This document shows positions 13,274-53,065 of a stretch of 64,000 nucleotides of DNA, one piece after another. Below the pieces are notes generated by a model that saw only the letters and a program-made list of their open reading frames with translations, did not search any database and was not told the DNA's origin. Source of the DNA: Thermothielavioides terrestris NRRL 8126 (lineage: Eukaryota > Ascomycota > Sordariomycetes > Sordariales > Chaetomiaceae). How positions within the stretch are numbered: position 1 is the first letter of the stretch; the number at the start of each line of letters is the position of its first letter. A program made the translations under genes and the position numbers. The DNA is taken from positions 2,108,001 to 2,172,000 of the forward strand of contig NC_016457.1 in assembly GCF_000226115.1 (NCBI RefSeq). The letters run 5' to 3'.

Positions 13274-14188
13274 ATGTCAGAGGCACTGTTGGACGAAATA
13301 GAAGCTATCAACTCGATCTACGGCGACACCACGCTTTCCCGCTCGGCCCCTGACCAGGACCCCACCCTCTTTGTGCTCACTCTCCCTGGCGATACAGCAT
13401 CGCTCCGCTTGCAGTTCCCGCCAACCTACCCGGATGTCCCACCCGTCGTCCTGGGCACGCAGAGCTCTGGCTCAGCCGGAAAGCGCGGTGACGCAGCCCG
13501 CGACCTGGCCCTCTTCCGAACTGCCGTCAGCGAGGTGTACGAGCCCGGTCAAGTTTGCCTGTTCGACGCCATAGAAAAGGTGCAAGAACTGCTGGCCGCC
13601 GTTAAGGACCGCGAGGTCGCGGATGAGGTCGACCACGAGCACGAGACAGGGGCCGGCGGCACTGGTTCCGTCTTATCCTCATCCGGAGCTGCAACGACCA
13701 ACGGCACCGCTGCTCCCGCCACCCACCAGGAGGCGGAGTCCGATCCTCTTCTAGGCCCGCCGCCCCCTTGGACTCTCTCTCTGCCCTTCACCGAGTCAAA
13801 ATCAACCTTCCTCGCCCGTTGCGCCCCCGTAGCCTCCCCGCAGCAAGCCAGCTCGTACGTCGCCCACCTGCTGGCCTCGGACAAGCGGGTGCGCGCGGCG
13901 ACGCACAACATCACTGCCTGGCGCATCCGCGGCGCCAACGGCACCAGTTTCCAGGACTGCGACGACGACGGCGAGACGGCGGCCGGCGGGCGCCTGCTGC
14001 ATCTCATGCAGCTGATGGATCTGTGGGATGTCATGGTGGTGGTGACGCGGTGGTACGGCGGCCAGAAACTGGGCCCGCGGCGGTTCGCTCTGATTAATCA
14101 GGCGGCGAGGGATGCCTTTGTGAGGGCCGGGCTCGTCAGGGAGGAAGGGACGACGGCAAGGGGTGAGAAGAAGAAGGGAGGGAAGTGA
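13274..14188 (+). CDS. yih1: Yih1/IMPACT homologue (RWD + UPF0029), Gcn2 regulator
   Basis: Yih1/IMPACT binds Gcn1 through its RWD domain and so dampens activation of the eIF2alpha kinase Gcn2; it acts in the cytoplasm in amino-acid-starvation signalling. The single exon encodes 304 residues. Residues 1-110 form an RWD domain with EIEAINSIYGD at 8-18 and the YPDVPP turn near 52-57. A low-complexity Ser/Ala/Thr linker spans about 115-160. The C-terminal UPF0029/Impact domain runs from about 165 to 288 with THNITAWRI (210-218) and TRWYGGQKLGPRRF (258-271). The protein is somewhat longer than the roughly 260 residues of yeast Yih1, mostly through the linker and a basic tail (EKKKGGK). It converges with the CASTOR-type gene downstream. 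Confidence 0.9.
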   Translation: MSEALLDEIEAINSIYGDTTLSRSAPDQDPTLFVLTLPGDTASLRLQFPPTYPDVPPVVLGTQSSGSAGKRGDAARDLALFRTAVSEVYEPGQVCLFDAIEKVQELLAAVKDREVADEVDHEHETGAGGTGSVLSSSGAATTNGTAAPATHQEAESDPLLGPPPPWTLSLPFTESKSTFLARCAPVASPQQASSYVAHLLASDKRVRAATHNITAWRIRGANGTSFQDCDDDGETAAGGRLLHLMQLMDLWDVMVVVTRWYGGQKLGPRRFALINQAARDAFVRAGLVREEGTTARGEKKKGGK

Positions 14189-24013: not shown

Positions 24014-26808
24014 ATGCCAGGCTTTGCAGATTCGTTCTGGTCGACAGACTACGCCGCAGGTGAGCTGCTTCTCCCCGGGCATCTGGGCAAGGAGGGATGA
24101 CCGTCCCTTCGGGATCGCGCTGACCGACTACGAGGACTCGGGGTCTTGTTTGGCAAACTACAGCAAGGCGTCATTGAGAATCGCCAGGTCCTCACAATCG
24201 CCCGCATGCGCGCCGAGGCCGAGGAGATCTACGGTCAGCGCCTGTCCGAAATCGCCCCTGCAGTCGACAAGATCCAAGGCGGGTTCGGCCGCGACGATGG
24301 CGCAAGCGTGCGCAAGGCGTACGAAGGCGTGCGATCCGAGATGGAGGATGCCGCCAGGAACCACAAGAAGATTGCGCAAAACATCCGCGATCTCGTAGTG
24401 AACCCCTTCTCGCGCTGGTGCGACGCCCACGAAGCCCGGATCCAAGACTCGCAGGAGGAGCTGCAGGCGCGAATCAAGGCGCACGATAAGCAGGCTGAGG
24501 CCGTGAAGAAGCTCAGGAGCAACTACTTCAGCAAGTGCCGTCTCGTTGAGGACCTAGAGGAGGAGAACAAGCTCGCCTTCCAAGATCCCGAGACCAGCCC
24601 CAAACAGAAGCAGAATGTTCCTCAGATCAAGGTGGAGCAGGAGCCCGTCCAAGAAGACGAGCCTCTCGAGATTGGCGATCAGATGTACACCCCGGAACAG
24701 ATCAAGAAATTGCTCGCGCACATGTTGACCACCGTCAAGATGGGCGAGACGAAGGTCCCGATCCTCGGCACCTACCAAAACACTTCTGCCGGCACAGACA
24801 TTGTGGATTACATTCAGCAGCACATGGGGAGCACGAGTGTGAGCTATGCTGAGAGGATCGGCCAGGACCTGGTTACGCATGGCTTCCTGCGCCTGGTCGG
24901 TAACGTCGGGAATACCTTTGCCAACAGCTCCAAGCTCTTCTACCAATGGCGGCCTAGGGCATTCGAAGTGGCCGGCCTGCCGGAGAAGAAGACGCTTGGA
25001 AGGACCTTTTCAATCCCCGTGTCTGGGTCGGACGCCGCCGACTCTCCCGTGGTTGGCACCGTGACCGAATACCTGGCCAAGTGGGACGTCCTGAATACTT
25101 CGCGCCCGAACGAGACGCCTGCGGAGCGCATGCGCCGAGAAGCGAGAGAGGCGGATGAGAGGTACAAGGCCGGAGTGCAGAAGCTCGACGAGATGCGCTG
25201 CGAGCTGGAGGAGGCTATCTTCCTACATCTCAAGTTTCTCGAGCGCTGCGAGCTTGACCGCCTCAAGGCGATCAAGACGGTCATCCTGGACTTCTCGGGG
25301 ACGATTAGCAACGTGATCCCGAGCCTGCAAGCCACCGTCGACAACATGATGCTCTATCAGGAGACGGTGCAGCCGCTCGGCGACCTGCGCTATCTGCTGG
25401 AGAACTACCGGACTGGCAGCTTCGTTCCAAAAGTTGTCGTCTACGAGAACTATTACAACAAGGTGGACGATCAAACCTTCGGCGTGGACCTCGAGGCCCG
25501 AGCTCGGGCGGACCGGAAGCGGGTGCCTATCATCATCACCACGTTGCTCACCTACCTCGATCACCACTATCCGGATCTCGAAGGCGACGAGGCACGGAGG
25601 GGGGTATGGCTGCACGAGGTTCCGCTTTCCCAGACGCACAAGCTGCGAGCCCTGGTCAACAATGGGAAACCGCCCGCCCTAGAAACGTTTGCCCAATTCG
25701 ATATACCGACCGTCGCAAGTCTCCTGAAGCTTTATCTGCTTGAACTTCCCGGTACGTCACGCTGAAAGCCCCGGGAAACCGCGGCCTCTTTTCTAGCCAC
25801 TACTAACGAAGAACAGATTCCCTCGTCTCCTCGCACGTTTACGAGATCATCAGGACCATCTACACCACTCCCCCCGGCGACGGCGGCGACGCCGCCCGCA
25901 TCCCGGTCCTGCAGCAGACACTCTCCCAGCTACGGCTGACGAACATCGCGTCGCTGGATGCGTGCATGAACCATTTCACTCGCCTGATTGACCTCACGTC
26001 CGCCGATGAGGAGTATGTGTCGAAGCTGGCGACCATGTTGGCCCCCTGCATTCTGCGGCCGCGCACCGAGACCTCTCTTACAATGGAAGAAAAGCATGCC
26101 TACCGGCTGGTTCGTGACCTGTTCGCGCACAAGGACGCCATCTTCAACGAACTCAAGCGCCTGTCAACCATGACTTCCTCCGGCTCCATTAAGGGTCAGA
26201 GCCGGCCGCGGGCGATCTCCACCGACGAGAGTAACCGGAAGGCCCACATGGAGGAGCGCAACCGGGCAATCCTGGAGAAGGCCAGTGGCAGTCGGAGCAG
26301 GGCGACCTCGCCCGCGCCGAGTTCCCGGGCGACCCACCGCCGCGACAGGAGTGTCGGAGGGCCCGAAACACGGTTCCCCATCTCGACCAACATCTCCAGC
26401 CCCACCAGCGAGCACAGGAAGCGGACGAGTCTCGGGCCGGTGCTCCCTAAGAGAACGAGCCTCGAGGTCCCCGCCGAGACCGACGGTGCCACGGGCCTGA
26501 GCCACCCCGCCGACGGCAACTTCATCATGAACGGAATCGCATCGGTGACGGGCGCCGTCCCCGCGGCGGAGCCGCAGGAAGGCATGGTGGAGAAGCGCAA
26601 CAGCCTGAGCCGTAGCGGGGCGCGCTTCTCGGCCGGCCGCCGTGTGACGCCCGCCTCTACCGCTGCGGCGGCCGCGACGGGCACGACGGGCACGCCGCCG
26701 CCGTCGCGCCACCAGCACACCGGCAGTGGCCAGCTGGAGGCGCAGCAGCAGAGTCCCAAGCCCGCGCAGCACGGCGTCACGCTTGTTGATGCCCCGATGG
26801 ACTACTAG
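24014..26808 (+). CDS. Rgd2-like F-BAR/DEP/RhoGAP protein
   Basis: RhoGAPs speed GTP hydrolysis by Rho/Cdc42 GTPases; F-BAR domains bind curved plasma membrane. Three exons, 24014..24059, 24135..25751 and 25817..26808, encode 884 residues. The F-BAR (FCH) start FWSTDYAAGLGVLFGKLQ is completed across intron 1. A DEP domain lies at about residues 219-289, inside the F-BAR region, a layout typical of the Rgd2 group. RhoGAP spans about 470-690, beginning FGVDLE and continuing across intron 2 with LPDSLVSSHVYEII. The tail (about 700-884) is disordered, rich in Ser, Thr, Ala and Pro. At the position of the usual arginine finger (GIFRVSG) this protein reads GVWLHEVP, with Leu508 in place of Arg. Introns are 75 and 65 nt, both phase 1. 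Confidence 0.88.
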
Positions 26809-27402
26809 TGACGGTCCTTGTTGGGGGGGATGGCTGAAGTTGGGGGTGTGACGCTGATACGATGCGGTAAGGTGCTGGATGGTGGAAGGAGGGTGGAAAA
26901 ACGAAGACAAGGACAAAGGCGAGTTATGATGATGACATGATGGCGTGCGGACCGCTGGAGCGAGCCAGTTGGATTCCAATGTATCTGTGCCTGCTACAGC
27001 TGTACGAGTGCAGACTTGGGAAAGCCTTGCATTCTCTTTTTTTTCCTTTGTTCATTTGAATGGGTTTGGTTCCGCAACTGTGTTCTCGATGTGTGTCTTC
27101 AATGATTGGGTGTGTCTCCTGCCTGCATTGTACCGCCTGGTTTTCTTTACAGGATCTTTTTCTCGGTGTTCTGTGCCCTGCGTGGCGGCGGCAATGGACA
27201 TGCTTGACGAAAGCTGTTAGTTCGAGTCCTTGGAGCAGCAAGCCGGAGAGGTTGGATGAACAACTGAGCTGGAAAACCCCCTGGCTGGCGATGCGGTCGT
27301 TCCTTTGATGCACGCCGTGTCTGCTTGCCCATGCAGCTGCTGGCTGGTGAGGATATGCAACGCGAGTGAGCAACCCGCGTCCGTCTTCTTCCAAAGGCTG
27401 CC

Positions 27403-27416
27403 CGCTTTTTTTTTTC

Positions 27417-27447
<31 letters not shown>

Positions 27448-27452
27448 TTTTT
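27403..27452. repeat. T-rich (TTTTTC)n tract
   Basis: About 50 bases of T runs broken by single C, with a recurring TTTTTC unit. It lies about 500 bp upstream of rvt, in the intergenic region. Confidence 0.85.
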
Positions 27453-27747
27453 CCTCGCCCCATTTGGCGCGAGGCTGAAAGTTTGCTGCCTCAGGAGCGC
27501 CAGCAGAGCATCAACAAACGCATTGTAGAACCGGGGGTTGGGGAGTGGCTGGTTGTGTCATTGCCGTGCTTGGCCCGCCGTCCTCAACAGCCCAAGCATC
27601 TCACCTTTGTCCTCGACTGTTCATGGTTGGTCCCATTAATGCTGTGCTGACCGTGACACGCCGTCCTCAAAGGCATCCTGTTCCACACCGATGGGGGCTC
27701 GCTTTGCTGCAGCCAACGTTCGTTGGGCCGATCCTCGCTCGCTCAGG

Positions 27748-27755
27748 TATAAAAA
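27748..27755 (+). promoter_or_regulatory. TATA-like box of rvt
   Basis: TATAAAAA, with flanks CAGG and CTGGG, 189 bp before the rvt start codon. A good TATA consensus is uncommon among neighbouring genes and is often linked to inducible genes; the link to transcription here is inference. Confidence 0.45.
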
Positions 27756-27936
27756 CTGGGATGTTTCCCTCTCCAGAAGATGTCTCTGCAAGACACCGCA
27801 TCCAGCGCTGCCTATCAGGACAACACCATTGACACGCCAAGTGTGCCTTGATCCGTCATTGAGAAGCTACACCTCTCATCACGCTCACGTTTTTCTGCAC
27901 CCCACGCCCATTTCAGCATCAATACGCGACCGCGCC

Positions 27937-30552
27937 ATGGCGTCCACAGACATCCTCTCCCAGACGCTCTCATCCATCACGGCCATCAAACTTGACCAGC
28001 TCCACGCACAGAAAGATGCATACGAGAGCAAAAAGCGCAGCCTGTGCGAAAATGTCGTCTCTGAGGTCAACACCGCCGAGCGCGTGAAGAAGCTGCTGCA
28101 AGGCGCTGAAGCGCTCCGGTCGGTCGGACTCAAGAAGAGCGCCGCGCTCTCGAGCATGGGCGAATTTCTCGACCAAGCCCGATATGATCCTTCGGTGACG
28201 GAGCCCCTGCTGAAGGAATACGAGGCCGAACTCCGCGGCCACCTGGACGCGCAGACGAACAAGTACGAGTTTGCCTCGCTGTACGGCAAGCTGGTCGAGG
28301 AATGGATCGCCTTGGGCAACTCGGACGCCACTTCGGCCGCCGAGGGGTCCGGCTTCGTGCTGGTCGGCCGCGAGGAGATGCATCAGCAGCGCGCAACGTG
28401 GGAGGAGTACGTCTTCAAGGCCAAGGAGACCGACCGCAACGCCATCCAGCGGTACTTGGAAGGGGTGTTCTCCTCGAAGGAGGCCAAACGCGGCCTGGAA
28501 GCCATCCGAGAAAAGTTCAAGACTTTCCAGAAGGACTGGAAATCGCAGCGCCACTTTGACCAGACCGCGCTGGAGACGGTCATCAAGGGCATGTTGAGGA
28601 GCGACATCCTGACGGAGGAGAAGCGGACCACGCTGAGGGACTTTTTGGGAAACCGAGTCGTGCTCTCCGAGATCGCCGATGTGCTGAACATGCGCATGTC
28701 GGCCATTGCGTCTTGGAGTTGGGGCGCACCGCTCATCGTCGAGCAGCGCCGGAACCTCAATGGTCGATACCGGTTTTACACGGACGAAGACTTGCTGCAT
28801 GCCATCTTCATCTATTATGTGGGCCTGCAATGGGCTTGCTACCTCCGCAAAGTCCTGGTCGAGTTCGTCAAGACGGAGGGCGTTTGGAAATCTGACAGCA
28901 AGCCCATCTCCAAGTCCGATGCGCGCCGTCGCCGTTTCTTCCTCAACGACGCCGTGACTCTTCACAAGGCCTCAGTCCAGAAGGATCGTGATAACCACTT
29001 TGGTGCCATTCTCCTGAACCAGCTTCCCATCTCGTTCCACGAGGTCAGGGACTCGTACGACGGCGTCGGGTGCAAGAATGGAGACACCAGGCCGAGCCAT
29101 GTCCGCGTGGTTCAGGGACTGCTTCAGCGGCTTCAAACCGAGATCCTGATGCAAACGAAACTGGGAAAAGAGATCACGGTCATCCGCTCGGACTTCAAGT
29201 GGTTCGGGCCGTCCCTCCCGCACTCGACGATCTTCGCAGTCCTCGAGTTTTTCGGCGTACAGGCAGGGTGGCTAGACTTCTTCAAGCGAGTGCTGGAGGC
29301 GACCATGCGGTTCAAGCACGACTCACCGGATACTCCGGCGCAAGCCCGGAAGCGTGGGACGCCCATCAGCACCCCGATTGCGGATTTCTTCGCCGAGTCG
29401 ATCCTGTTCTGCCTGGACTACGCCGTCAACCAGAAGGCTGGCGGCACCCGCTTGTACCGGCTCCATGACGACATGTGGCTCTGGGGCGGCTTCGAAACGT
29501 GCAGCAAAGCCTGGAAGGTGATCACCGAATTCACCGACACCATGGGACTAGAGCTCAACCCGGACAAGACCGGCAGTGTGCGGATCGCGAGGGACCGGGA
29601 ATCGGCCATGGCGACTGACCCGCGGGTAGGGCTGCCCAAAGGTGACGTGAAATGGGGCTTTCTCAGACTGGACCCTGCCACCGGTCGCTTCTTGATCAAC
29701 GAGGAAGAGGTTGACAAGCACATCGAAGAGCTGCGCCTGCAGCTGTCGGCCTGCCGCAGCGTCCTCGACTACATCCAGGCTTGGAACATCTACGGAAACC
29801 GCTTCTTTGCCAACAATTTCGGGAGGCCCGCGAACTGTTATGGGCTCGCCCACATCGACAGCATGCTCGCTACTTTCCGCCGCATCCAAGACAAGCTCTT
29901 CCCGGATCATGCCGGCGGCGTCGGCGAGCACCTCAAGCAGATGATCGCCTCACGCTTCGGCGTCGCCCCAACCGACATCCCCGACGGCTACCTCTACTGG
30001 CCGACGTCGCTGGGTGGGCTTGGCCTGCAGAACCCCTTCATCACTCTCCTGCTCTCCCGCCGCCAAGTGACGAAGAACCCGGAGAAGCTCATTGATAAGT
30101 ACCTGGAGGAAGAGGAATTCGCATATGCCCGGGCCAAGGCGCGGTTCGCCGAACACAGCGACAGCGGCAGCGGCAGCGTGGGGCCCGGCTGGGTCGATGA
30201 GCACGAGTTCGAGGACCTGCGCGACGAGCCCTTCATGTCGCTGGCCGAGTTCACGCGGTACCGCGAGCGGACCGAGTCCGCGCTCGGCAAGCTCTACCGC
30301 AAGCTGATCGGCACGCCCGACACGGCGGTCGTGGTCGCGAGTGGCGAGGTCAAGGCGGCGCTGGCGGCCGGGGGCGGGGGCGATGCCGACGCCGTGTGGA
30401 GCGAGCTCAGCGACTACGACAAATGGGTCGTGCAGCTGTATCACAAGGACATGGTGGCGCGCTTTGGTGGCGTCGAGGTCGTCGACAAGGGCCTGTTGCC
30501 GACGGGGTTGATGGCGATGCTGTGGCAGAGCCGGTTCCGCTGGCAGGGGTGA
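27937..30552 (+). CDS. rvt: rvt: domesticated reverse transcriptase-related cellular gene
   Basis: Members of the rvt class (described by Gladyshev and Arkhipova) are host genes, not transposons; their cellular role is unsettled, and starvation- or antibiotic-induced expression has been reported in Neurospora. This copy is a single exon of 871 residues. The N-terminal 300 residues are helical and charged, coiled-coil-like. The reverse-transcriptase core shows motif A with Asp419 (IRSDFKWFG), motif B with Gly474 (GTPISTPIADFF), motif C as LHDDMW with Asp511 and Asp512, and motif D with Lys544 (LNPDKTG). The C-terminal 270 residues form a thumb-like and extra domain. No LTR, integrase, RNase H, endonuclease or poly-A tail is adjacent, and the frame shows none of the CpA-to-TpA damage seen after 44 kb. 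An in-frame ATG 82 codons earlier lies upstream of the TATA-like box, so the start at 27937 is preferred. Confidence 0.88.
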   Translation: MASTDILSQTLSSITAIKLDQLHAQKDAYESKKRSLCENVVSEVNTAERVKKLLQGAEALRSVGLKKSAALSSMGEFLDQARYDPSVTEPLLKEYEAELRGHLDAQTNKYEFASLYGKLVEEWIALGNSDATSAAEGSGFVLVGREEMHQQRATWEEYVFKAKETDRNAIQRYLEGVFSSKEAKRGLEAIREKFKTFQKDWKSQRHFDQTALETVIKGMLRSDILTEEKRTTLRDFLGNRVVLSEIADVLNMRMSAIASWSWGAPLIVEQRRNLNGRYRFYTDEDLLHAIFIYYVGLQWACYLRKVLVEFVKTEGVWKSDSKPISKSDARRRRFFLNDAVTLHKASVQKDRDNHFGAILLNQLPISFHEVRDSYDGVGCKNGDTRPSHVRVVQGLLQRLQTEILMQTKLGKEITVIRSDFKWFGPSLPHSTIFAVLEFFGVQAGWLDFFKRVLEATMRFKHDSPDTPAQARKRGTPISTPIADFFAESILFCLDYAVNQKAGGTRLYRLHDDMWLWGGFETCSKAWKVITEFTDTMGLELNPDKTGSVRIARDRESAMATDPRVGLPKGDVKWGFLRLDPATGRFLINEEEVDKHIEELRLQLSACRSVLDYIQAWNIYGNRFFANNFGRPANCYGLAHIDSMLATFRRIQDKLFPDHAGGVGEHLKQMIASRFGVAPTDIPDGYLYWPTSLGGLGLQNPFITLLLSRRQVTKNPEKLIDKYLEEEEFAYARAKARFAEHSDSGSGSVGPGWVDEHEFEDLRDEPFMSLAEFTRYRERTESALGKLYRKLIGTPDTAVVVASGEVKAALAAGGGGDADAVWSELSDYDKWVVQLYHKDMVARFGGVEVVDKGLLPTGLMAMLWQSRFRWQG

Positions 30553-32486
30553 GTGAGCGGGAGGTTGGCTGCTGATCGTCGTCGTGCATGAATTTGCTCA
30601 TTCATTCGGACTGGTCGAGATGGCGGACCCCTCAGGACTGTTGGACGAACGGAATGCCCACTCCTCGAGGGGTCGTTTAGTTGTTGCTGTTAGTAGATTG
30701 CCCCCGAGCTAAACAAGTCTTTGAGTTCCCACGGGACACCCTGCCTTGGGTGTTATACTCAGTCGTTATGTAGTTGCACATGTCGTAAATTGGCACAACT
30801 CCTTTTGGCTTCCTCAACCTGTTACGTGCACACATGGAAAGAGCTCAAAGCTCGATCATTGCCGACTCACGGCTAGGAACCCTGGGTGGACGCGTGAGCT
30901 GACTCTCCATAATAATTCGTCAGCGTCGGTAAACATCCACCCGCGCGGCCCCGTCTTCGGGTCCCCAATGCAGAAAGAATTTGGGCGGCATTGGAGGGCC
31001 CGACAACTTCCTTGTCAGAAGCTGCGCGCGGGCGGAGTTGTCCTCGCCCTCCTCGTTGCCGAATTGCGGACCGCCATCTTCATCCCCTGAAGTCTTGTCA
31101 ACGCAGATGTTGGCCCTGTCCGTCATGCGGGGAGAATGACATGGACCTTGCCCGGGAGACCGCCATTAGCCCGTAGGTAGGAAGGTAGGTAGGTATCCGG
31201 CCGGAGCCGACGCAGTTCTGTCTTGTGGTTCTGTCTCCTTCTCGAGCCCGTCCCAGTCTTGCAAGCAGTCCATCATCTCGCCTTTGCTTGACCGCGTCGG
31301 CCGCGGCGGTCATCCTTGCCTGCCCGTCGGCACGGCGGAAATACTCACGTTTGCGGCGAACTCCTCCAGCGTCACGTTTCTGTCCGTTTCCACGATCAAG
31401 ACACGATAGAGGAGTCTGCACTCCTCTCTGCCATCCGGAGTTGTTTTGAAACAGCTCTGTGGCCTCCAAAACCAACCGCAATTGGCAGGCGAGGGGCTGA
31501 GTCCGGAGCCAACGTTGCTTAAGGCTGACCGCGCTTTGGGCATTCTAAAATTGGGCAGTGCGCCAGCCAACCACAGAAGACTCCGTACCGGACTTTCGCC
31601 AAGTACCGGCGTGAGTGGCAACCTGAAATACACAGTATGGACGGAATACAACGTCCCCAACCGGCCGGATCAGCGTAGCACAGCCGCCAGCGCGCTGGGC
31701 ATACGCAACCTACCTAAGGTAGGTAAGTTACTGAAGTACACTACACTACCTAGGTAAAAGTTACTCCGTACATCATCCCACTTCCAGTAAAACATGTCCC
31801 TCCACTGTTGAGAAGTCTGTCCACCACTGCCTCTGCATGCTCAAGGCCATCTAAAATGAGCTCGGCGAGCTTTTAACTACCAAGCTTCGCGGCTGGGATC
31901 AATGGGAAGTTTGGTCTACCTTGCCAACAACCAACAACCCGAAAGGAACAACCTAGCCCCCACCAAGTCGGAAATGAACGGTGCCGCTGTGCCGCGCTAA
32001 CTAACGTTAATGTATGTGCGTTAGTCACCTTCCCTGCCGCCCGTGGCGCAGAGGCTGACGGCTTCTGGAAGCGTCATAGCTGTGGCTCTGCACTGTGCGG
32101 CCCCCATCTGCGGAGCCGGGGGCAGCCCACCGTCGCCCAGGCAAACCGCAAGGCGGCTGTGTTGGATCCAAGAACCTGTCGTGGAACTTTTCCGAGCTGA
32201 ACGGTTCTGCTCTAGCCTGCGCGTTTCCGTTATTTTCGTCCTTTCTTCGATGATGGCAGCACGGTGATTACCTTGCCTCGTTTGCTTCACGTTGCCATTA
32301 TTGTGTGTTTCTTTTCGCGGTTTCCGTTGTCGCATTTCCACTTGCAGAGCATCCCCCCCTTGGCGTGTTAGGGCCGTCGACATCGCAGCGCCGTCAACAT
32401 CAACAATCAGGCTGCCAAACCTGCCTTGTCCGCGACAGTAGCCATCTCCCCCCAGCAGCCCCCAAGAAGCCCCCCAGCCGACCAAG
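30553..32486. other. intergenic, 1.9 kb
   Basis: No recognisable gene. Short palindromic GGTAGG/CCTACC motifs cluster at 31,170-31,196 and 31,700-31,756 (for example ACCTACCTAAGGTAGGT and ACCTAGGT). The last 300 bases are C/T-rich and are probably the promoter and 5' UTR of the MARVEL-type gene. Confidence 0.5.
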
Positions 32487-33502
32487 ATGTGGGAGCTCGA
32501 ACTCGACCCAGAACTCATTCCGACTTTGAAGCTGGTGTTTCACTCAGCCCAGATCCTCTTCGCTTTCATTTCGTGGTGCCTGGAAATCGCGGTTTTCCGG
32601 GCGGACGGCTCCCAAATCGTGGGAAACAATGGCTGGACCTTCGCCGTGGTATGCCGCCTCTCCATCGCTCGCCGCCGAAAGCATGAAGCGCTTACTTGCC
32701 ATGCCTCGCCAGTTCTTCCTCTCCGTACCGGCCTGGATTTACTTGACCATGGCTCCGAGGTTCCCTCGCACTCGTCACATCGCCAACCCGAACGCCATGC
32801 TCGCGGTTGACGCCCTGTACACGGTCATCTGGCTGTCGGCCTTTGCTACACAGGCTGCCTATAACACGGCCAATCTGTGCGGCTCAGCCTGCGGCGTCAG
32901 CAAGGCCGTTGTGGGTCTTGCCTTCTTCGTCTTGTACGCTGCACCCCTTCTTCCCGCCCCCCTTTCCCTAGAACCGAGCGGAATTGCTAAACAACCTCTT
33001 ATTTTTCAGCCTTTTCTTCTGCATAACTACATTTCTCAGCATCTGGACCCTCAGGTACTACCGGTGGAACAACCGTCTGCCCGGGTACGACCGCGCCCAA
33101 CTCAACAGCCAGAACATCGACCCCGACAAGGCCGCCTTCTCGCTGGCCCCGCACGACGAAGAGGCCTACGCGCCCGTCAACACGAACGACAACGACGAGC
33201 AGCACCACGGATCACATTACGGCGGCGACGGCGCACACTCCGACTACTCTGATCATTTTGCCGGCTCGGCTAGCCATGTTAGCGGCGGTGCCAGCACGGT
33301 CAGCGCGTACCAGGACAACCCGTTCCGGGAGCACGAGCATGAGCATGCGGCCAATCCATTCGAAAGCGATACTGAGTACCACTCCGGGAGGGTGTCTGCC
33401 GCGGGCAGCCGGTATACGCCTCCGACGGCCGCGGACACCTACGAAGACGACTCGCGCCCAGTTAGGTTTCCTGCCGCGAACTACGACCGGATTGAGGGGT
33501 GA
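32487..33502 (+). CDS. MARVEL-type four-helix membrane protein
   Basis: Three exons, 32487..32648, 32713..32933 and 33010..33502, give 291 residues. Four membrane segments are visible: LIPTLKLVFHSAQILFAFIS, a short one around FFLSVPAWIYLTM, AVDALYTVIWLSAFATQA, and VVGLAFFVFLFFCITTFLSI, the last created by splicing. The layout and the LWLxAFAxxA-like third helix fit fungal MARVEL-domain proteins of the plasma membrane or endosomal system; a specific function is unknown. The C-terminal 150 residues are cytoplasmic and disordered, rich in Asp, His, Ser and Tyr, with repeated NPF motifs (DNPF and ANPF), which may bind EH-domain endocytic proteins. Introns are 64 and 76 nt, phases 0 and 2. The start ATG matches the first methionine and gives a short acidic N-terminus. 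Confidence 0.75.
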
Positions 33503-36784: not shown

Positions 36785-39585
36785 TCAAAACATGATCCAC
36801 TCAACCTCCACCCCAGGCCCGCCGATACACCGCGTCCAGTTAAAGGGCCCCCCTTTACCGCTGCCCGCCATCCTTCCATGTTGCTGGTGATGAGCTCTTG
36901 CCGCGTCCTCCTTCCACCCTTCGCCCGCCCACAGCCGCTCGAGCACCTCCAAGGCGGAGAGGTTGTTCATGTAGCCGCTGCGCGCCATGATCTCGCGGCA
37001 CTTGGACCGCACGATGTTCTGCTGCAGCTCGTTGACACACTCGCTGCCGGCGACGAACAGCGGCCAGAGCAGGAACTTCTCGGCCGCGCTGCCCGCCTCG
37101 AGGCTGGTGGCGTAGTAGACCACCTGGCTGACCAGGTTGCGGAAGTTGTTGTGGTTGGACGGCACGTTGGGGCTGGCCAGCCGCTCCGTGTAGAGCAGCG
37201 CCGCGTAGCGGAAGGCTTCGCTCAGCGAGTTGAGGTCGCGGACCTGGGCGCTCGTCGGGACCGGGGCCGGGGGCATCGGCCCCAGTGGGGACGGCGAGGA
37301 TGGCGAGGCCGTTGAACACGGGGCCGTCAGCGAGGCGCGGGTGCGGGTCGAGTCGAACTGCCAGCTTTGCAGGGCCTGGCGGGCTTCCTTCCATTCGCGC
37401 CAGAACATGCTCCGGGGGTCGTCGTAAGTCGCTGTGGCTTGGACATGCGCTTGGTTCAGCATGTCCTCGTCTTCAAGCGTCGGCGTGCCGAAACCGTTAC
37501 CGTCGAATCGCACGCCGCTGTCGATTGGATGCGGCGGGCCGCCGAAGATGCTGTGGTGGTGGGGGGGGTGTTCCGGCCCGCCAAGGAGGGGCGGGGATTT
37601 GAATGGCCCAGCGAGGGGGGACGCCGGCCGTGGAGATGCGGTCATGCGAGGCAGCGAAGAGGACGCGACGAGCGGTTGGACGGGACGATGTTGGGAAAGA
37701 AGGTTCAGCCGGCCCAATTTGCTGATAGTCTTGAAGAGTTCCCGATCACAACCCACCCAGTTCTCGGCACCCGGCGGTAACAGATGTGCGTCCGGCGGCA
37801 GGCCGTAGAACGAGGTGGTAAGCTGGGGTTCCCTATCGTTGACGCTGGCGGAGATGGCGTCGAAATAAGTAAATAGGGCCTCCATCCATGCCGAATCCCT
37901 CGATGCCGGGTAGGGCGACATCCGTCGCATGCCGAGGATCTTTTTCACTCCCGCAAATTGTGTCTGGAACTTAGCAACGCCCGACTCGGCCATCCGGTAG
38001 TGGCATAGGACTAGGATGGTCGCCAGAACAGAGTCGTGCGTAGACTTTTCCGGGTCGTGTAGCTGCTCGTTGAGGAGGCGGACGGCGAGATTCCGGTGCT
38101 GGTATTCTTCCGCCAGCGACTGATCGCTAGGCTGAACGTCGGATCCGCTGTCGATCAGGCTCATGTCGAATCGCCTCTCCCCAGCATCTCGTCCATGCTG
38201 GCCCAGGCTCAGCTTCCTCTTCATCCTCAGATTGCATGCCGCAAGCGCGCAGATGGCATGCTGCAGACTCCTGCTGCTAGTGCCGAGCCGGAGTATGTGT
38301 TCTCTGAACGGGTTGTTGACGCCGTCGATGTACACCATGCTGGGGCACATGGTCTTCTCATAGTAATCCATGAAGAAGGGCATCTTGGTGATGAGATCCG
38401 GGCTCACCTGCAGGACAGGTGAGGGCGGTTGGGAGGGAATCGAACCCGGCCAGGGCGCGGGATTTCGGTCTGGGACGCTCTGCGAGACGGACTCATCGTC
38501 GGCACTCGAGGACGTCCAAAAAGCGCTATGAGAATGCGCGCTCGAGCTGTATGTGTCCAATTCAGGCGTGCCAGGGCCTGTGCGCCGAGGTCAGCGTCTG
38601 TAATACACAAAAACTCACCAGGGCTTGCGTGGTGTAACTCACCCAACATGTCGCAGTCGTGACGCAGTTTGCGGCTCAGCTGCGCCTCCAGGCTGTCCAC
38701 ATGAGAAACATGAGATTGCAAGCTCGAGGCCGGCTCCGACGGGGCATAGACGAGGCTGGGACATGGCGCCGGTGCGCGGGACTGCTCAATCATCATGGCG
38801 GCCACTGGACTCTGAGGAACGGGCGAAGCGTGGCTGGGAAAGCTCTCGTAGACCACCGGGCTGTGGATGAAGGAAGGCACCTCTTCCCTCGGGAATGAGT
38901 GAACAAGAGGCGACATATAGTCGACGTCGCTCATCGAGTCGATCGGTGTCTGTATCATATCCCGCTGCATCATGTCTCCCGGGGCGGAGACCGGGATATG
39001 GAGAGGCCTCGGTGGGAACCTCGACGCGTCGTTTGTAGGCATGCTCGACGAGAAAGGAATGTGAGTCCAGCCTGGCGGCGCCGACCCCGTCGGCGACATG
39101 TGCGACATGTCGTAGGCGTGAAAAGGCGTCGCCACCGACACGGATGGGTTCCGTCTGTGGCCCGTCTCGGTCTTGATACCTCCTTCCACCTCTTCATTGA
39201 CGGCCTGGTCTTCCTGCTGCTCGGTCGTCCAGTGCCCAGTCGAGGCGATAGAGCCGGTCCGAGCCCGTTCTGGGGTCGGCGACTTGACCGACTTGGCCGA
39301 GCTCACCGGCGGCGCCTTCGCGATGGGCAGCGACAAGCCTCGCAACTTTCCGCGACTCGCCACGCCGACACCCCATGTTAGCTGCGTCTTGTAGCCAGAG
39401 CACTCGTTGCCAATCTCCAAGCACTGCGAGCAGTATGGCCTCCTCCGGTCACACTTCACGTTCCGTTTGGCACAGGTGAAGCAGTCGTCGGCGGCTCCAC
39501 CCGCTGGGGCTCGTCGCCTCCGCTTCCGGGCGGAGGCGGCATCCTTCGCCGTCGAGGTCGGCGGCGTGGTGATCGGGGCGGTCAT
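36785..39585 (-). CDS. Zn2Cys6 transcription factor with fungal-specific TF domain
   Basis: A fungal binuclear zinc cluster DNA-binding protein. Exons 39585..38643 and 38577..36785 give 911 residues. The six zinc ligands are at 35, 38, 45, 52, 55 and 62 with spacing C-x2-C-x6-C-x6-C-x2-C-x6-C, preceded by a basic stretch (ARKRRRRAP). A Pro/Ser/His-rich activation-like linker follows, then a second half of the Fungal_trans_2 type with MPFFMDYYEKTMCPSM, LRLGTSSRSLQHAICALA and LATILVLCHYRMAESGVAKF. The ATG at 39585 is preferred; an in-frame TTG lies 2 codons upstream. The intron chosen is 65 nt. A second GTGAGT donor 24 bases further on keeps frame (see findings). Target genes are unknown. Confidence 0.85.
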
Positions 39586-39841
39586 GATCAAGGCCGACGG
39601 TTAAAGTAGATAATCGGTCGGACACGTTCGCTTCTGCAAGGGCGGTCTCCGGTTTTTCCCCGTCCTTCCAGCAAGCGTCGTGGGGAGGGCAAATCCAAGG
39701 TAACGGGGCGACAGAGTGAATGCTATCCAAGGCACGTTCTGGCCTCTAACGGACAGCAGCTGACTGGTGTGGATAAATAGGCGGTAATATGGGAAGAGTC
39801 GGGTCCCATAAGCACGCTGGGTACTGGGGAGGGGGAAGGGA

Positions 39842-41853: not shown

Positions 41854-44399
41854 TGGCTCGTGCCATGAGGGTGGGGGTGGTTCGCAACCTGGTCGATGGT
41901 GCAAGCTAACGTTATCAATGAGATGCATACTCTCGTGTAAACTGTGCAAGTCGGCTATCCAAGAGCGCAGCGTTGCAAAAACCGGTGGATCGGTCCAAGC
42001 CTGTCCAGCGCAAGCACTGCCTAAGGTCCCGTATCAAGGTCTTTACACGTCTAACCGCGCGCTGCCTCCCGCTGTCGCTCGTCTGCCTCGAAAAGCAAGC
42101 AAAACTTCAATGTTACGACAGTAGGATAAGCGGTCAACCCGAAGCTGCGGAGCCTGGCAGCTGGTGGAACGACGCACCCGGGAGGATGCCACGAGCCCCG
42201 CGTGGGGGTTCTACATGGGAATATACTGTGTATATCAGCAGACCGGTTACCTTGGTTGCCGGGTCAGAGAACCTGGACCAACATGATGTTGGCGAGCAGC
42301 ATATTTGGGGAGCACAGTCGGTCTTGAGAAGCAGGATGACTACCCCAGAAGGCCTCCTGGGAGGGAACTTCATTTCAGATACGACTGGTCGCCCGCCCCT
42401 CGGCCGTGTGGGGAGATCACCCCTCTCGCAGACACATGACCATGACCTCGCAAACTGGAACTGGCTGCGAGATGTGCAGGTAGTATGAAGGCCGTACGGT
42501 GCATATTCAAACAAGGACGTGAGCATAGTCGGCTTGCCGAAGATAGCCTCCCTTTCACATGCTTACATGCTTTGTTGCCGCACTGATAGCGCTTCGTGTT
42601 CATGGACAGTACGATGTTATATACCTGACAGGCCGGAATATTACACCACGTAAAGTACCGTTATATTCTGGTCGAGTATTCCGTGCTTCCGGACCGTCAA
42701 CGATTTGCACGGCAAGGGCCTTTCAGCTTCGTAGTGACGAGGGCCCCTGGGTATTCAGCGCCAGTTCTGATTTGTCGCCTGTCACTCAAAGCACGCCATC
42801 TCATCGAAACGCCGCCCGACTGATCGCCGTGGTGAGAAGCATCGAACGCCCTGTCGAAGGTTTGGCAGGATCGTGGCCATTGCCGCACTTGCCACTCGTG
42901 TTTTGGCCCATACGAAATAATCCGTATGTACAGTACACTACGCTACGCAAGGAGCGAAAATTGGTTAGCGCTTTGCGCTTGCCTGCTTTGAGTATCGCCA
43001 ACGGGCGACCGGGCACGGCCATTGGCTGCACAAGACACCCAGCTTGGCGCAATGCGATGGCATCGGTGAGCCAGTGAGAACTCGGAGCCGTGGATGAAAG
43101 CACAGCTCTGCATTGTGGCTGAAGTAAACGGCCCTTTTCCCATGCCGCCTCGCGGCACCGCCAGTTAACGTTGTCTTGGCTCCCGCCAAGCGGGCCATTT
43201 GGGGCCTGATTCCCTGGGCGCATGCCTGAGCCTGGCAACAGTTGTGCCTGAACTCATCAGCTCAGCTGGAGAGGGACAGGGTGATCCCGTAAGCTCCGGC
43301 CTTCGGTAGGTCCTTATTATCAAATGGTCCTCTGAAGAGTTCCTTTGGAAGTTGAGCGACAGGAATGCGGCCACTCCGCGATCGCTCTCTCGAGTTTTCG
43401 TTGGGAGATCCGGACTTTCGGAAGCCTCCCATCACGCGGAAACATTGCAGCATGCACCGAAGGGTTGCGCCATCAGCGTCAAAAGCCGTCATCAGCCCTC
43501 CCACTTCCAGTCAGCTTGAAAGCATTCCAAATTAATCGTTTCCGTCCGCTCTCCAAGTCCACGGGACCCCTCGATTCTTGCGCGGGGAGCATGCTGAGGT
43601 GGCAGCTCAATGCTCAACGTCGGAAACCTTTCCAGAGCCCAGTCACTTGGTATGCCCTCTTATCGATGATTCGAGCATCGATTAATTGTCTGCAAGCGCA
43701 CTGCGGGAACTCCCTTGCAGAGTGTTGCCGTGTTGTTTTGACTGCCTCTGACCGCTGGACGGATGGAACGTTGCAATCAACCGGCTACGCCTTAACCGAG
43801 CCTGGCATGGCTCCTCGATTCCCTGTTATCATGTGCACCGTCTCCCCGCATTCTGGCTTTTCAGTTCCCAGCCCAGTTCTGTCACCGAGATGCAAGCCGG
43901 GAAACTGGTGTTGCAGTCCAAAAGTCTCTGCCTTGTTCACAGCGGTGTCGCATTGCGCGAACACCTCCACACCTCCCCGATTCCCGATTGCGCGTGGCAT
44001 CCATGTACTGTACATACACCATCCGTACTTGCACACGGTATTCAGTATCGTGTGGCGTGTTATTAGCTAATGGTGCGCATGCCTGCTGCCATCTCGCCTC
44101 GTCGCTTCGTCAAGATCAAGTACGGAATACATGCTGCGCACCTGATCGCGGCCGGGCCTTCTCTTCCCCCAGCATGGGCGCGCCACCGTGGAGCCCTTCC
44201 CTCCATCGCAGGAACCAATGCTTTCACAGCGCTAGAGGTTATAGAGGTCCCGCCAAGCCTAATTTCCGAAGTCCCCACAGGTACCATGGCGCCCGCGCTT
44301 AGAAGTCACTTCTCTTGCCGCCGTTTAACAATTTCTACACGGTGGTCCTTACGTCCGCATCGCGTCAGTAGCTAGCTAGCCGCTAGTTTGCATCCTGCC
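41854..44399. other. gene-poor flank before the AT-rich block
   Basis: About 2.5 kb without a recognisable gene. Contains GTACAGTACACTAC at about 42,928 and a TAACGTT-type motif at about 43,164. Base composition begins to change after about 44,390. Confidence 0.5.
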
Positions 44400-44539
44400 T
44401 ACGTTTCCCTAACCAATCTGCGTCTATACCTACCCTCTATTGTACTCTAACCTATATTACAACATTGTATCGCTATAGAACTATATATTTAGCCTATATC
44501 TAATAGATCTTATTAGTAAGTTGGTCAACTAGTTTGCTA

Positions 44540-44990
44540 TTAGTATATATTAGTAGTTGCTAAGTATTGATTTAGCTATAGACTAGTATCCTACTATAGA
44601 CTAGCTTGCTTTATATAGCTAGTAACTAGAAGATATATTAAGTAAGTTGTTTTACTATTTGCCAATTAGTAGTTACTAAGTATTGATCTAATTATAGACT
44701 AGTATCCTATTATAGACTAGCTCGCTTTATATAGCTAGCTATAAAACAATATACTATATAATTGGCTATAAAACGATATACTATATAGCTAGCTATAAAA
44801 CAATATACTATATAGCTAGTAACTAGAAGATCTGCTAGGTAAATTGTTTTACTACTTACTTATTAGCAGTTGCTAAACATTGATCTAGCTATAGACTAAT
44901 ATCCTACTATAGACTAGCTCGCTTTATATAGTTAGCTATAAAACGATATATTATATAGCTAGCAATAAAACAATGTAGTATTTATAGCCT
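44540..44990. repeat. tandem repeat at the edge of the AT-rich block
   Basis: Three diverged units begin near 44,551, 44,667 and 44,865; each opens AGTAGTTGCTAAGTATTGAT (or a close variant) and contains TATAGACTAGTATCCTA. Inside them a shorter unit around GCTATAAAACAATATACTATA repeats at least four times between 44,740 and 44,980. Differences between copies are mostly C/T and G/A. Confidence 0.7.
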
Positions 44991-45449
44991 ATTAGCGCCC
45001 TTAGTCCCCTTTAATATATAAGTGCTATTTAGTCAAATAGCGAATTTGATTACTAGCGTTAAATTGCTAATGCTATACCTATAGCGAGCTCCCTAGTCCT
45101 AGAATATATATTTACTAAACCTAACTTCGATCTAGCTACTTAGTAGATACTATCCTAGCTCCTCCTTGTCTCTAAGCCTCTAATCCTACAATCGTTATAA
45201 TTAAGTAGTATTCCTAGTCCTACTCTAGCCTCTGCCTAGCTACTTAGTAGCTCTATACTATCCTCTAAGGAAGATAGTTCTTTAAAAGAGATTTCTAGAT
45301 ATAGGTATAGGCACCTATTCCTAATTCGCTTATTTAAACTAAAGGCTAAGGCGCCAAATAGCGGCTTTACAATTCCCAACAACATCGTAAAGATCTAGGA
45401 ACATTAGTTCAAAGAGGGCTAGTTTACCCTTCTATATATAATTTAGTAA

Positions 45450-46600
45450 GCTAAATAGCGCTAGGTATCGTATTTCTATAGCCGAAGAGACGCCCTAAGG
45501 TAGTAGTAAAAGAAGACTATATTCTAGTACCTCCTTTGGAAGACGCTATAAAAGACGAAAGGGCAAGGCCAATGTAACAAGGCATTATAGAATATAGAGC
45601 TATATCGCTATACTCTCTACTAAGTTCTATATAAGGATAATATCGTTAATATCGACATTCGCTATAGCTATAACTACTTAATAGAAGCCATTAAGATAGT
45701 TAAACGCCTATATACTATTCTAGAGTATATCGCCTACCTCCTCTTCTCTAGATATAGCGACAGTGTAATAGAACACTAGCTATATAGCTATACTAAAACC
45801 CCTAAGGCTAGGGTACGCCTTTACTTTATAGGCGGCTAGTATATTACAATAAGGGAGATTGCTAATCTTCGTAGGTCTCTTAAGCTTAGTAAACGTAACG
45901 ATCGAAAGGTATAGTCCTACAAAGTTCTTAAGGAGCTAGAATTTATAGAAGCTATTACTTAGCTACTATCCTATACTAATCGGTATAAGTATAAAGCGTT
46001 GACTATCCCTAGCGAGAACTCCTCTACGTTAGTCTTTGTATATAAAGAGCTATTAGATATACTTAAGAAGTATAGTCAACTGTCGATTATAGATACTATT
46101 TATAAGACTGCCTATAGTGGTTAATATCTATTTACAATTATAGTTTAGAACTTCAATAGCTACTAGCTCCCTTCTACTTACTTCTTTATAGAGAGGTAGA
46201 CTACTAATAGCATTGTAGTATACCTAGGCGTACTGCTAGAGTAGTATAGGGGAGTAGCTAATAGGGGCTAGCTTCTAAAATATATAATTACCAACGACTC
46301 TATAGCCGAACAACTTGCTGTCTAGGAGGCATTTGGCTACGATAAGTATAGCCTCCTATATATATAATATCTCCTTTATATAAAGCATTGCTAAGAGACT
46401 TTAAAGCGCTAGATTAGTATTAACAAAGAGTACCTTAGCTATATAGCGGCTACTCTTCTAAGCTATCGTTTAGAAAAAGGCTATATAGAGTCTATTAAAG
46501 CTGCTATTGCTTACGCTAGTACCGATAGGCTTAAACAGTATTTAAAGAACAACTAGCTAAACAATACTCGACTATAGGCGTATTGGGTACGTGTTATACG
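45450..46600 (+). pseudogene. MULE-type transposase relic
   Basis: A plus-strand frame with many TAG and TAA codons still shows the DDE features of Mutator-like transposases: an IIDTIYKT box with the first Asp near 46,092, then IITNDSIAEQLAV with the second acidic position (Asp changed to Asn in TND), followed by IKHC and ETLKR. Stops fall at former Gln or Trp codons, for example after IKHC. The relic ends near 46,600, where an LTR-like sequence begins, so it may be interrupted by the gypsy element that follows. Boundaries are approximate. Confidence 0.55.
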
Positions 46601-46629
46601 CAACTGTGGCAAGGGCACCTATAACCGTA

Positions 46630-46842
46630 CTACGGTCAGGGGTAACGAGCGTTCCCTTAAAAAGGGAACCTTACCCGGAACCCCTTTGTAAGAAGACAGA
46701 CTACATTAATATACTTTTATAATATATACTAGTGTTTAGGAGTGCCGCTTTATTAGCTGACGAGACTAAGAGGCATTGATCTTTCTTACCTTTATACGTT
46801 TATCGCTAGATAGTTACTAAGCACTATCTACGTATAACAAGT
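46630..46842 (+). repeat. possible solo/5' LTR with primer-binding-like flank
   Basis: Begins near TACTACGGTCAGGGGTAACG and ends in TATAACA, followed by AGTGGTGCC, an LTR-like end plus primer-binding-like start just before the gypsy relic. It holds an inverted repeat GTTCCCTT/AAGGGAAC. No second matching LTR was located in the window, so this is tentative. The 46,570-46,690 part is less RIP-damaged than its flanks. Confidence 0.4.
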
Positions 46843-49620
46843 GGTGCCTACTAACGATTCGAATCTGTTTACTTCCTATTAAAGGGAGCTAAGTTCGGAT
46901 TAGGAGATATTATAAGTTATATTTAGTAAGTTGTATAGAGTAACGTCTAAGGCAGATAATACTCCTTTTTAAAGGAGTAAGCTTTAGGAAACGTATTATA
47001 TAACGAACTAGTTCGCTTCGCTAATACCGTCAACTTGACCTTAAGTACCCTTAAGGTATTAGGAACTAGACGAAGTTAAGCCCTATAAATATAAACGTTT
47101 ATAAGGATATATAGTAGACTCTTAAGTTTATTAAAGACTTTAGGGTTACCTACAACGTTTAGTAGGTTACTAGTATTAGCTGATAGAAACTTAAGTACCT
47201 AGAAGCTATAATATCTTTTAAGATAGTACTAGAAGAAGACGACTATATATAGCGATATACTTAAGAACTATATATCTCGAAGTATCCTCCCTCTTAGATA
47301 CTTAATAACTATATTCTATATACCTATCTTATATCTATTAGGTATAAAGTCTAAGTAGCCGTTAGTAAGAACCTTATTTTAGACCTTAGGATCGAAGACG
47401 CTACCTCGGAGACTAAGGACTTGATCTAAGAAACACTAGAGACCTTAGTACTAGAGAGTTGGGGACTATTAGAGACCTTAAAGCCTTAGGAGACTAGCGA
47501 TTAGTAACTAGGACTAGCTATATCGCTAGAAACATTAGTAAAAACTAGATATAATTCGATTAAGAACTAGCTAGTAACTCTACTAAGCCTAACCTTCTAA
47601 AAGCAACTAGAGCCCTAAGATATATTAACTATTCTTTAATAGGGATACGAAACCTATATCGTTAATAGCTATAATCTTAGTAGACGCTACTAAGGACTAC
47701 TAAGAGGATCGTAGGATTTACCGCCTTAGAACCGACAACCTAAAAAGGAAGATCTATTATCTCTAATAGTTTAGCTAATTAGCGTTTTTAACTAAGTTCT
47801 CTAACTACTACTATAGACGCTTAGCCAACTATCCTAGTACCTATCTAAGCTTTCTAGACTAGGTATAATTATCTAGAACCCTAGAATAAAATATATAGAT
47901 AGTTTAGTCGATTCTAGTGTCTCTTTACTATTTTAAGAGATGTTGAGCCTACTATATAGATAAGTAGCTAGACCCTTTGGACAAGGAGCTAGACCCTCTA
48001 GATAAGTAGCTAGAGCTATAGATATCTAGGCCGCTTTCGCTATATAGGACTTTCTCATCTAGATAGCTAGAATAATAGAGAACTTAAACGTTATAATCGA
48101 AAGAGTGAATAGGGCTATAAGTATAGAAGACCGTTAGCCTAAACCCAAGGATAGAAGTACTACGTCTTTGTAGCTATCTATATCTACATTGAAATAGAAG
48201 ATTTAAGACACTAGTCTCTTCTAGCTAGATATAGAGAACAAGTCTAAGGAACCCTAGGACCTATAGTATAACAAATAGTAGCTATACTATAGGGATATCA
48301 ACCTTTAGGTTAAGTAGGTAGATTAAGTTATTAGATACTACCTAATAAGAGAAGAGACTCTATATATAGAAATATAGACTCTACTTCGAGGCTTAGCATT
48401 ATAATAGTATAAACAGTAGCTCTCTACTATAGAAAAGGCAGTACTGACTATATCTATAAAAGTATAGACTAAACGTTTAAAAAAGGAGTTTAGTATTAAA
48501 AGATATAAAGTAGAGAAATAGTTAAACGAAAACCAATATACTATAAGGGACAACTATAAAAATAAACTAGTTTAGAAATTCGCTATAGAATACTTTAAAT
48601 ATATATATATTTAAAGAGATACTATTAAAGAGCAACGTCTAATACATTTATATAATTGTCTTTATCTAGAACTTCGCTAATTATACTCTAAACTAGATAT
48701 AACTATAGAGATAGGTATATTCTTTAGTATCTTCGATACTAAAGTATATATCGTTAGAGACAAGTTCTACTAGGACGCTGCCAAGGGCTATATTATTAGC
48801 TATAGTCCTATTGCTAACAACGTAGATATAGAGTACAATGACGAAGGATAAGGAGACGACTAGGAGGATAGTAGAGCCTTTTAGATAGAAAGAGGTAAAA
48901 GAGGATATTATAATCCTTAGAGAAGAGATAGGGACAAACCCTAGCAACTTAGAAATAATTAGCGTAGAGATAGTAACTAAGTATAATTATTTGATAACTA
49001 AAACTTCTATAGTACAACTAGATATAGAAGAGGATATTAACTGTTCAACGATTGTAGAGGAGAACTTAGACTATTCAATAGCTAGAGAAGAGGTGACAAC
49101 GGTAATTAAGGAAGACTACCTTGACTTCAACGACTCTAATAGATTTGGATATATATATATAAGAAGTAGTTCGAAGATAGTACCTTCTTATACTATAGTA
49201 AGATTATAGTAATAGAAGACGATAAAGACACTAACCTTTATTGTAAAATACTAGAGAAGACTAGGTATATTCTTATTAACAAATACGATACTAAAGCTAA
49301 GGATGAGGAATTAGAAGACAAGGAAGCTAATAGTTTTTACTACTTATATTATACCTTTCGCTAGCCTAGACTAAGTTGGAATAAACTGCTATAATAGCTC
49401 TTATAGATTTAGTAATATATCGCCTATACTAGAGTCTTTGTAATACGTTATAAGCTTTTCGAGTATATAGCCAACAATAGCGATAAAGACAAGTGTAGAC
49501 CTATATAACCTTAAATAGACCACTAGTATAACCTTAGTAACAACGAGGATAAGCTTAATAGTAAAGATATAAACTTTACGTTGATCAAAGGACAGATTAT
49601 AGAAGTATAGCTATATATAC
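46843..49620 (+). pseudogene. probable gag/leader region of plus-strand gypsy relic
   Basis: About 2.8 kb between the LTR-like repeat and the protease-to-pol relic, where gag should lie. Only a 72-residue open frame (48,991-49,209) survives; the rest is chopped by TAA and TAG. No zinc-knuckle motif could be assured. Assigned by position only. Confidence 0.4.
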
Positions 49621-49639
49621 CGCTATTAAAGGCGTTGGA

Positions 49640-52600: not shown

Positions 52601-53065
52601 GCGTTAGATAGTATATAAATACGTTTAGCACTACCCTATATATAGAGAGAACTAGACCTTAAGAGAACTAAAGCTTAGAGACCTTTAGCTAATTTGGATA
52701 TTGCTATAGCCTTTCTATACTATTATTATAGATTTTATTGTTAGTTTGTCTACTATACTCTCTAAAGGGACATTATAGTCAATGAAGAAGTACCTAATCT
52801 TCAACGCTATATATACTATTATTTGCAAGTTTAGTAAGAAAAAGCTTTTTATAGCTAAAAACAATAAAATGTTAATAGAGGAATAGGTAGTTATAATCCT
52901 TAGAGTATTAACGTATATAGATTAGGGACTCTTAGTATAAATCATTAGCGACTAAGATACTAAGTTTACCTTTGACCTATAGAAAGAAATCTTTTATATT
53001 TTAGGCATTAGCCTCCTTTTTTCGATAGCTTATTACCCCTAGATAGACAGTTAATTAGAGAGGAC
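49640..53065 (+). pseudogene. Ty3/gypsy pol relic (protease, RT, RNase H, truncated integrase)
   Basis: In order: a protease-like segment near 49,650-49,950; reverse transcriptase at about 50,820-51,430 with RVVVDLQPLN-type start, FNVSRFFFQ at motif A (Asn at 50,997-50,999 where Asp is catalytic) and YIDN at 51,180-51,191 where YIDD is expected; RNase H with KLDINGKG-like and ERKYRSTEIE at about 51,660-51,900; integrase at about 52,440-53,065 with a zinc-binding-like N-terminus and ISDxDTKF. It stops abruptly after the segment before the final catalytic Glu. Many Gln and Trp codons are stops. The only sizable surviving open frame is 51,147-51,422. Confidence 0.75.

Follow-up and report, generated by a model that had tools for sequence, protein, structure and literature searches.

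The window, a stretch of 64,000 nucleotides from contig NC_016457.1 of Thermothielavioides terrestris NRRL 8126 (Sordariales, Chaetomiaceae), carries on its plus strand an intact and intronless reverse transcriptase (RT) gene, rvt-A (27937–30552), identified from its translation, from its match to the PADLOC profile RT_UG37 and from the best 120 of 349 relatives listed by a protein search. Translation of this interval yields 871 codons plus a stop and is interrupted by neither a stop nor an intron, exactly as the first-pass annotation had described the frame. Its assignment of the catalytic aspartates was equally exact: D419 lies in motif A (RSDFKWFG, 29185–29208, plus strand), whereas D511 and D512 form part of LHDDMW in motif C (YRLHDDMW, 29455–29478, plus strand). 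Motif B, read there as GTPISTPIADFF from residue 474, and motif D, LNPDKTG from residue 540, are likewise present. In the alignment, motif B spans residues 471–487 (RKRGTPISTPIADFFAE, 29347–29397, plus strand) and displays the most visible difference between the two groups of rvt proteins described below. An N-terminal all-helical region, residues 4–255 (27946–28701, plus strand), is predicted by the AlphaFold2 model and lies inside the RT_UG37 match. The Pfam search with rvt-A returned a single chance match (DHC_N2, E 0.09) and no RVT_1, endonuclease, integrase or RNase H.

The open frame extends upstream of 27937 and contains an in-frame ATG at 27691. This codon was rejected as the start, and 27937 is the likely start codon, since the rvt proteins of both groups align with rvt-A from near M1 and a TATAAA precedes 27937 by 189 bases (27748–27753, plus strand; a consensus match and thus a possible promoter element).

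A whole-genome DNA comparison recovered the 4.5 kb from 27000 to 31500 as one copy in the 36.9-Mb genome. Between 24 and 34 kb no LTR- or TIR-like repeat was found; the repeats detected there amount to a single imperfect direct repeat of 26 nt and two inverted pairs, both weak. Hence, neither of two observations named beforehand as arguing for a transposon, terminal repeats and near-identical genomic copies, was made in these intervals. Together with the intact catalytic residues and the lack of a Pfam endonuclease, integrase or RNase H, this bears out the earlier description of a host gene devoid of mobile-element parts. The description as single-copy holds for the DNA but not for the protein family, because a protein search revealed a second, diverged, intact and intron-containing rvt gene, rvt-B, on another contig, C6.

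As previously claimed, rvt-A itself bears no mark of RIP (CRI −0.85, CpG observed/expected 1.08, GC 61%). The "RIP graveyard" next to which it was placed is real and occupies 44001–64000 (unstranded), where each 2-kb step has a CRI of +1.13 to +1.78 and a GC content of 31–38%, but "next to" is loose wording for an AT-rich block that begins about 13.4 kb downstream of the gene. Purifying selection had been deduced from the single copy and the retained catalytic residues; the residues are indeed retained, but the genome has two rvt genes, and the absence of RIP does not by itself demonstrate such selection. Purifying selection on rvt-A is nevertheless strongly indicated by the conservation of the protein across fungal classes. 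Elsewhere in the genome, 150 of 488 RVT_1 candidates were scored and include neither rvt-A nor rvt-B; on reading, all but six of the 150 contain stops, mostly TAG as RIP would give. Five of these matches are alike in having 137.6 bits and an open frame of 1324 aa without stops (C1:2629902, C2:5104320, C3:579261, C5:3244116 and C5:4280872) and apparently represent a single retroelement present in several intact copies.

With respect to the neighbours, the F-BAR/DEP gene reported upstream is real (24101–26805, plus strand, Pfam), and its RhoGAP similarity is divided between two frames (E 0.0024 and 0.00091, both under the Pfam cut-off). The MARVEL-type neighbour downstream (32530–33249, plus strand) is a frame with weak similarity, at E 0.0046 also under the cut-off. 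An Rfam search of 24–34 kb returned no RNA match, a result that a novel RNA partner could escape. Further away, about 13.7 kb upstream of rvt-A, the window encodes a protein with RWD and UPF0029 domains (13274–14188, plus strand), possibly there by chance, a make-up that we take to be that of IMPACT/YIH1, an inhibitor of Gcn2. Two overlapping frames with Fungal_trans_2 and Zn2Cys6 matches at 36785–39591 (minus strand) probably belong to one intron-containing transcription factor gene.

The rvt-B gene and its AROM neighbour

In the protein search of its own genome, rvt-A found, besides itself, four pieces on contig C6 (3,570,487 bases) that join into one gene on the minus strand. This gene, rvt-B (C6:2267889–2270955), is intact and encodes 908 residues on four exons with predicted borders (C6 2270955–2270592, 2270487–2269948, 2269801–2268605 and 2268514–2267889), separated by three introns of 104, 146 and 90 nt. 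Its motifs QTDLQWYG and LHDDIW are intact. The two proteins share 34% identity by BLAST and 37% over 856 aligned codons, over which DNA identity is 51% and the first, second and third codon positions differ in 48, 41 and 58% of cases, respectively. The NG86 estimates of dN 0.69 and dS 1.30 are near saturation and unreliable, and they describe a pair of paralogues, not orthologues. RIP works only above an identity threshold, which the pair, at 51% DNA identity, probably does not reach. Since no protein identical to rvt-B occurs among the 120 relatives listed for it (best 74%), though the AROM protein of this strain is present in the database, rvt-B seems to be unannotated or badly modelled in the public protein set.

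The gene is arranged divergently from a gene for the pentafunctional AROM protein of aromatic amino-acid synthesis, which matches THITE_2124223 of T. terrestris NRRL 8126 at 100%, and 1,998 bp lie between both start codons (C6:2270956–2272953). We compared this arrangement across fungi by means of equal contig sizes, and rvt-B and AROM were placed on the same contig in 18 of the 19 genomes for which both were listed, T. terrestris included, while the same was true of rvt-A and AROM in none of 12; some of the shared contigs are megabases long and do not imply adjacency. If the genes were placed at random in a genome of 37 Mb, about 0.8 of the 18 cases other than T. terrestris would be expected to share a contig. 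The exception, Thozetella sp. PMI_491, has an rvt-B of the Xylariales-type group that is not linked to AROM. Closer proximity is evident from locus tags, which are one or two apart in all five genomes with tags for both genes: Thermothelomyces fergusii (rvt-B/AROM 1445/1444), Mycothermus thermophilus (5745/5746, on a contig of 13,724 bases), Remersonia thermophila (6709/6710), Cercophora sp. LCS_1 (12187/12186) and Humicola hyalothermophila (7196/7194, on a contig of 15,117 bases). Contig sharing reaches as far as Pleurostoma, which we place outside the Sordariales.

The interval between the two start codons contains two TGASTCA sites (C6 2271234 and 2271453), a motif that we take to be the Gcn4/CPC1 core. 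Base-shuffled versions of the interval have a mean of 0.21 sites, and 2.1% of the shuffles reach two; the 1 kb upstream of rvt-A has none. Both sites may serve AROM only, and the linkage may reflect nothing more than a common gene order. Related fungi, including the Sordariales, often have conserved neighbours, so that the linkage alone is suggestive. We regard it as a genomic pointer from rvt-B to amino-acid supply, read from gene arrangement and separate from what is deduced from Neurospora. No mention of a fungal pair of rvt paralogues or of an AROM gene next to rvt was found in the literature searched; the 2011 rvt paper and a review of prokaryotic RTs may say more.

Two groups of rvt proteins

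With rvt-A as query, 349 of the 8,000 candidates scored were relatives at E 0.001. Most of the best 120 span the whole query, and those with names come from Sordariomycetes and Leotiomycetes, among them Neurospora tetrasperma and Sordaria macrospora. When the 240 proteins listed by the searches with rvt-A and rvt-B were scored against both, all 120 from the first list scored higher with rvt-A and all 120 from the second with rvt-B, which, for the best 120 of each search, is a clean gap and not a census. The tree likewise sets 114 group A rows apart from 108 group B rows with a support of 1.0 (222 proteins of 790–1120 residues, from 241 in hand), and with the 83 named rows the split has an SH-aLRT of 100, also in a tree without outgroup. 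Group A spans Leotiomycetes to orders of the Sordariomycetes; group B has further members such as Aspergillus, Penicillium and Lignoscripta, a lichen fungus. At least ten species have retained both genes, namely eight named in the tree table, H. hyalothermophila (P0094 and P0129) and T. terrestris.

The split is unrooted because no bacterial relative was found to root it. Searching with the rvt alignment gave 26 stretches in genome contigs and 72 in viral contigs, none of which was confirmed, and tblastn of the rvt protein P0001 against plasmids and phages gave no match. A hand-made motif C pattern marked 46 stretches in genome contigs; none of these proved to be a full rvt when scored with the rvt profile (best E 1.3e-4 and 1.4e-3). 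RT_UG37 matched parts of RT cores at E 0.001 in 3 of 17 genomes (best 1.8e-10) and equally in 3 of 14 control genomes; at E 1e-20 it matched none in sets of 296, 396, 3, 398, 294 and 247 genomes, and no control. A bacterial rvt exists in Chloroflexota, a phylum outside the genomes tried, and these negatives do not establish the absence of rvt from bacteria.

Judged from their residues, both groups look catalytically competent. D419 is an aspartate in all 222 proteins, H510, D511 and D512 are kept in 221 with one gap, and R471, G474, W616 and N617 are invariant. Sixteen columns are at least 92% fixed within each group yet differ between A and B, and among those near motifs A and B are R417/Q449, two residues before the catalytic aspartate, P425/T457 and, in motif B, D483/K518. 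In HIV-1 RT, an aromatic steric gate lies five residues after the catalytic aspartate. Among the rows with a letter at this distance from D419, all 113 of group A have G, and 106 of the 107 of group B have A, G or T. A small residue here would fit the preference for NTP that the N. crassa RVT reportedly has, although an aromatic residue at +4 leaves the register ambiguous.

Within group B, the Sordariales rvt-B proteins fall with those of the Eurotiales and apart from the Xylariales-type rvt-B (SH-aLRT 99). A constraint joining the 37 Sordariomycete B rows was not rejected (AU p 0.42), so that a single Sordariomycete group is acceptable and horizontal transfer is not claimed.

Proposed role of the two enzymes

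According to PMC10680173, rvt relieves amino-acid starvation and antibiotic stress via non-templated polymerisation, for which intact catalytic residues are required. Polymerisation of nucleotides without a template has been published for other RVT members as well (PMC3520738 and PMC10680173), and the published triggers are amino-acid starvation and translation inhibitors. Since rvt-A groups with the Neurospora protein and its catalytic residues are intact, we infer a corresponding activity and trigger. We thus favour, with moderate confidence and largely by analogy, that rvt-A is a non-mobile host rvt gene encoding a stress-induced non-templated polymerase of the NcRVT type, and one of two ancient paralogues that have been kept. 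Its inheritance is apparently vertical. As other RVT proteins reportedly do, the enzyme would add nucleotides independently of a template; amino-acid shortage or a translation block would switch it on, and its activity would carry the cell through these stresses. Other RVT members are also said, in the title of a paper, to form multimers. rvt-B would be a parallel enzyme, with its expression coupled to amino-acid supply through the interval shared with AROM. For the product, our guess, at low confidence, would be the tailing of RNA ends during translational arrest, which we prefer over a use in defence.

More tentatively, we regard it as quite possible that the Pezizomycotina possess a two-enzyme RVT system, in which a duplication that took place no later than the split between Leotiomycetes and Sordariomycetes left two differently built active sites, rvt-B became wired to amino-acid control via the AROM interval, and RVT synthesis would form an arm of the starvation response. 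Several observations count against the best explanation: TGASTCA is absent from the 1 kb upstream of rvt-A, whose linkage to AROM is seen in none of the 12 genomes, Thozetella breaks the linkage of rvt-B, the tree has no outgroup, and no bacterial relatives appeared at E 1e-20 in the genomes tried.

Part of the same evidence would also agree with A and B being largely redundant back-ups, with the pairing of rvt-B and AROM an inherited gene order devoid of regulatory meaning. Among the best 120 listed for each gene, Neurospora and Sordaria are confined to A and Aspergillus and Penicillium to B, so that one copy may suffice; moreover, conserved gene order is common in the Sordariales, and several of the same-contig cases lie on megabase contigs. 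We nevertheless consider redundancy somewhat unlikely given that 16 columns are fixed differently in both groups, those near motifs A and B included, and that at least ten species have kept both genes.

Few RT relatives have been retained by eukaryotes as host genes, and rvt is one of them. An old second paralogue with a long-conserved AROM neighbour offers a physiological handle on the question whether RVT enzymes belong to the starvation response, and the products of A and B can be tested in fungi with both genes or only one. The class as such is already known; the interest for specialists lies in the two-paralogue history and in the linkage of rvt-B to AROM.

Comparison with known reverse transcriptases

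The PADLOC profile RT_UG37 matches rvt-A with an E-value of 1.2e-60 over residues 12–712 (profile positions 7–667 of 778), and a B orthologue, an Aspergillus protein and a Neurospora protein with 4.9e-54, 1.2e-59 and 1.8e-54, respectively. The next profiles for rvt-A are RT_UG17 (5e-7), Drt9 (3e-6) and Drt6 (2e-5), and a profile of 64 rvt proteins compared with PDB sequences finds the DRT9 RT best (E 2.3e-5), followed by DRT2 at 0.034. These matches, of which that to RT_UG37 is near full-length, are what one would expect if rvt were a eukaryotic relative of the defence RTs that acts on mycoviruses or transposons, with the starvation response being secondary. We hold this to be distinctly improbable, since RT_UG37 is a candidate defence group in PADLOC for which the literature searched contained no defence test, the reported triggers of rvt are starvation and translation inhibitors, and Rfam gave no RNA near rvt-A between 24 and 34 kb, although a novel RNA partner is possible.

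The AlphaFold2 model of rvt-A adopts the right-hand RT fold (pLDDT 87.9, pTM 0.87). About 50 residues with one helix lie between helix 347–358 and the strand of motif A (413–420), and the placement of motif 2 is uncertain. The best solved chains for this model are RTs, including those of the R2 and LINE-1 retrotransposons, in a VIA-align ranking that re-orders Foldseek matches and leaves room for unlisted folds. While these chains and the fold itself might recall a retroelement that is recent or has survived, with a frame left open by chance or through a recent arrival, such an origin is practically untenable for a gene that is present once as DNA, lacks flanking repeats as well as Pfam endonuclease, integrase and RNase H domains, and has full-length orthologues over two classes, in a genome whose many RVT_1 matches contain stops in all but six of the 150 scored.

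Set beside known systems, rvt-A differs from LTR and LINE retrotransposons, which have terminal or target-site repeats, several copies and Pfam RVT_1, all of which it lacks. The genes called RVT1 and RVT2 in PMC4920403 are transposon genes and not members of the rvt family. R2, LINE-1 ORF2p, group II intron RTs and the RT-like domain of Prp8 are also among the closest known systems. The similarity of rvt-A to the defence RTs DRT9, DRT2 and DRT10, the last being the RT of UG17 according to the preprint PMC12632851, is confined to the RT core, and Rfam found no ncRNA for rvt-A in 24–34 kb. The match to the bacterial group RT_UG37 (PADLOC PDLC03776, listed under DRT) takes in the N-terminal region of rvt-A as well as the RT core and thereby connects the greater part of the fungal protein with a group of bacterial RTs that is listed in a defence category, though the fungal proteins run about 160 residues beyond the match and UG37 was compared here by profile only.

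Closest are the rvt genes themselves, the class of Gladyshev and Arkhipova that includes Neurospora RVT, with which rvt-A has in common the RT core, the HDD of motif C and the status of a host gene without mobile parts. It falls in the same group as the RVT proteins of N. tetrasperma and S. macrospora. In PMC10680173 and PMC3520738, rvt is described as single-copy, whereas T. terrestris has two diverged paralogues with introns only in the second; we treat single copy as a description of the family and not as a defining trait. Both the identity of rvt-A as a member of this known class and its paralogy with rvt-B are demonstrated, and by analogy it would share the function of the class as well.
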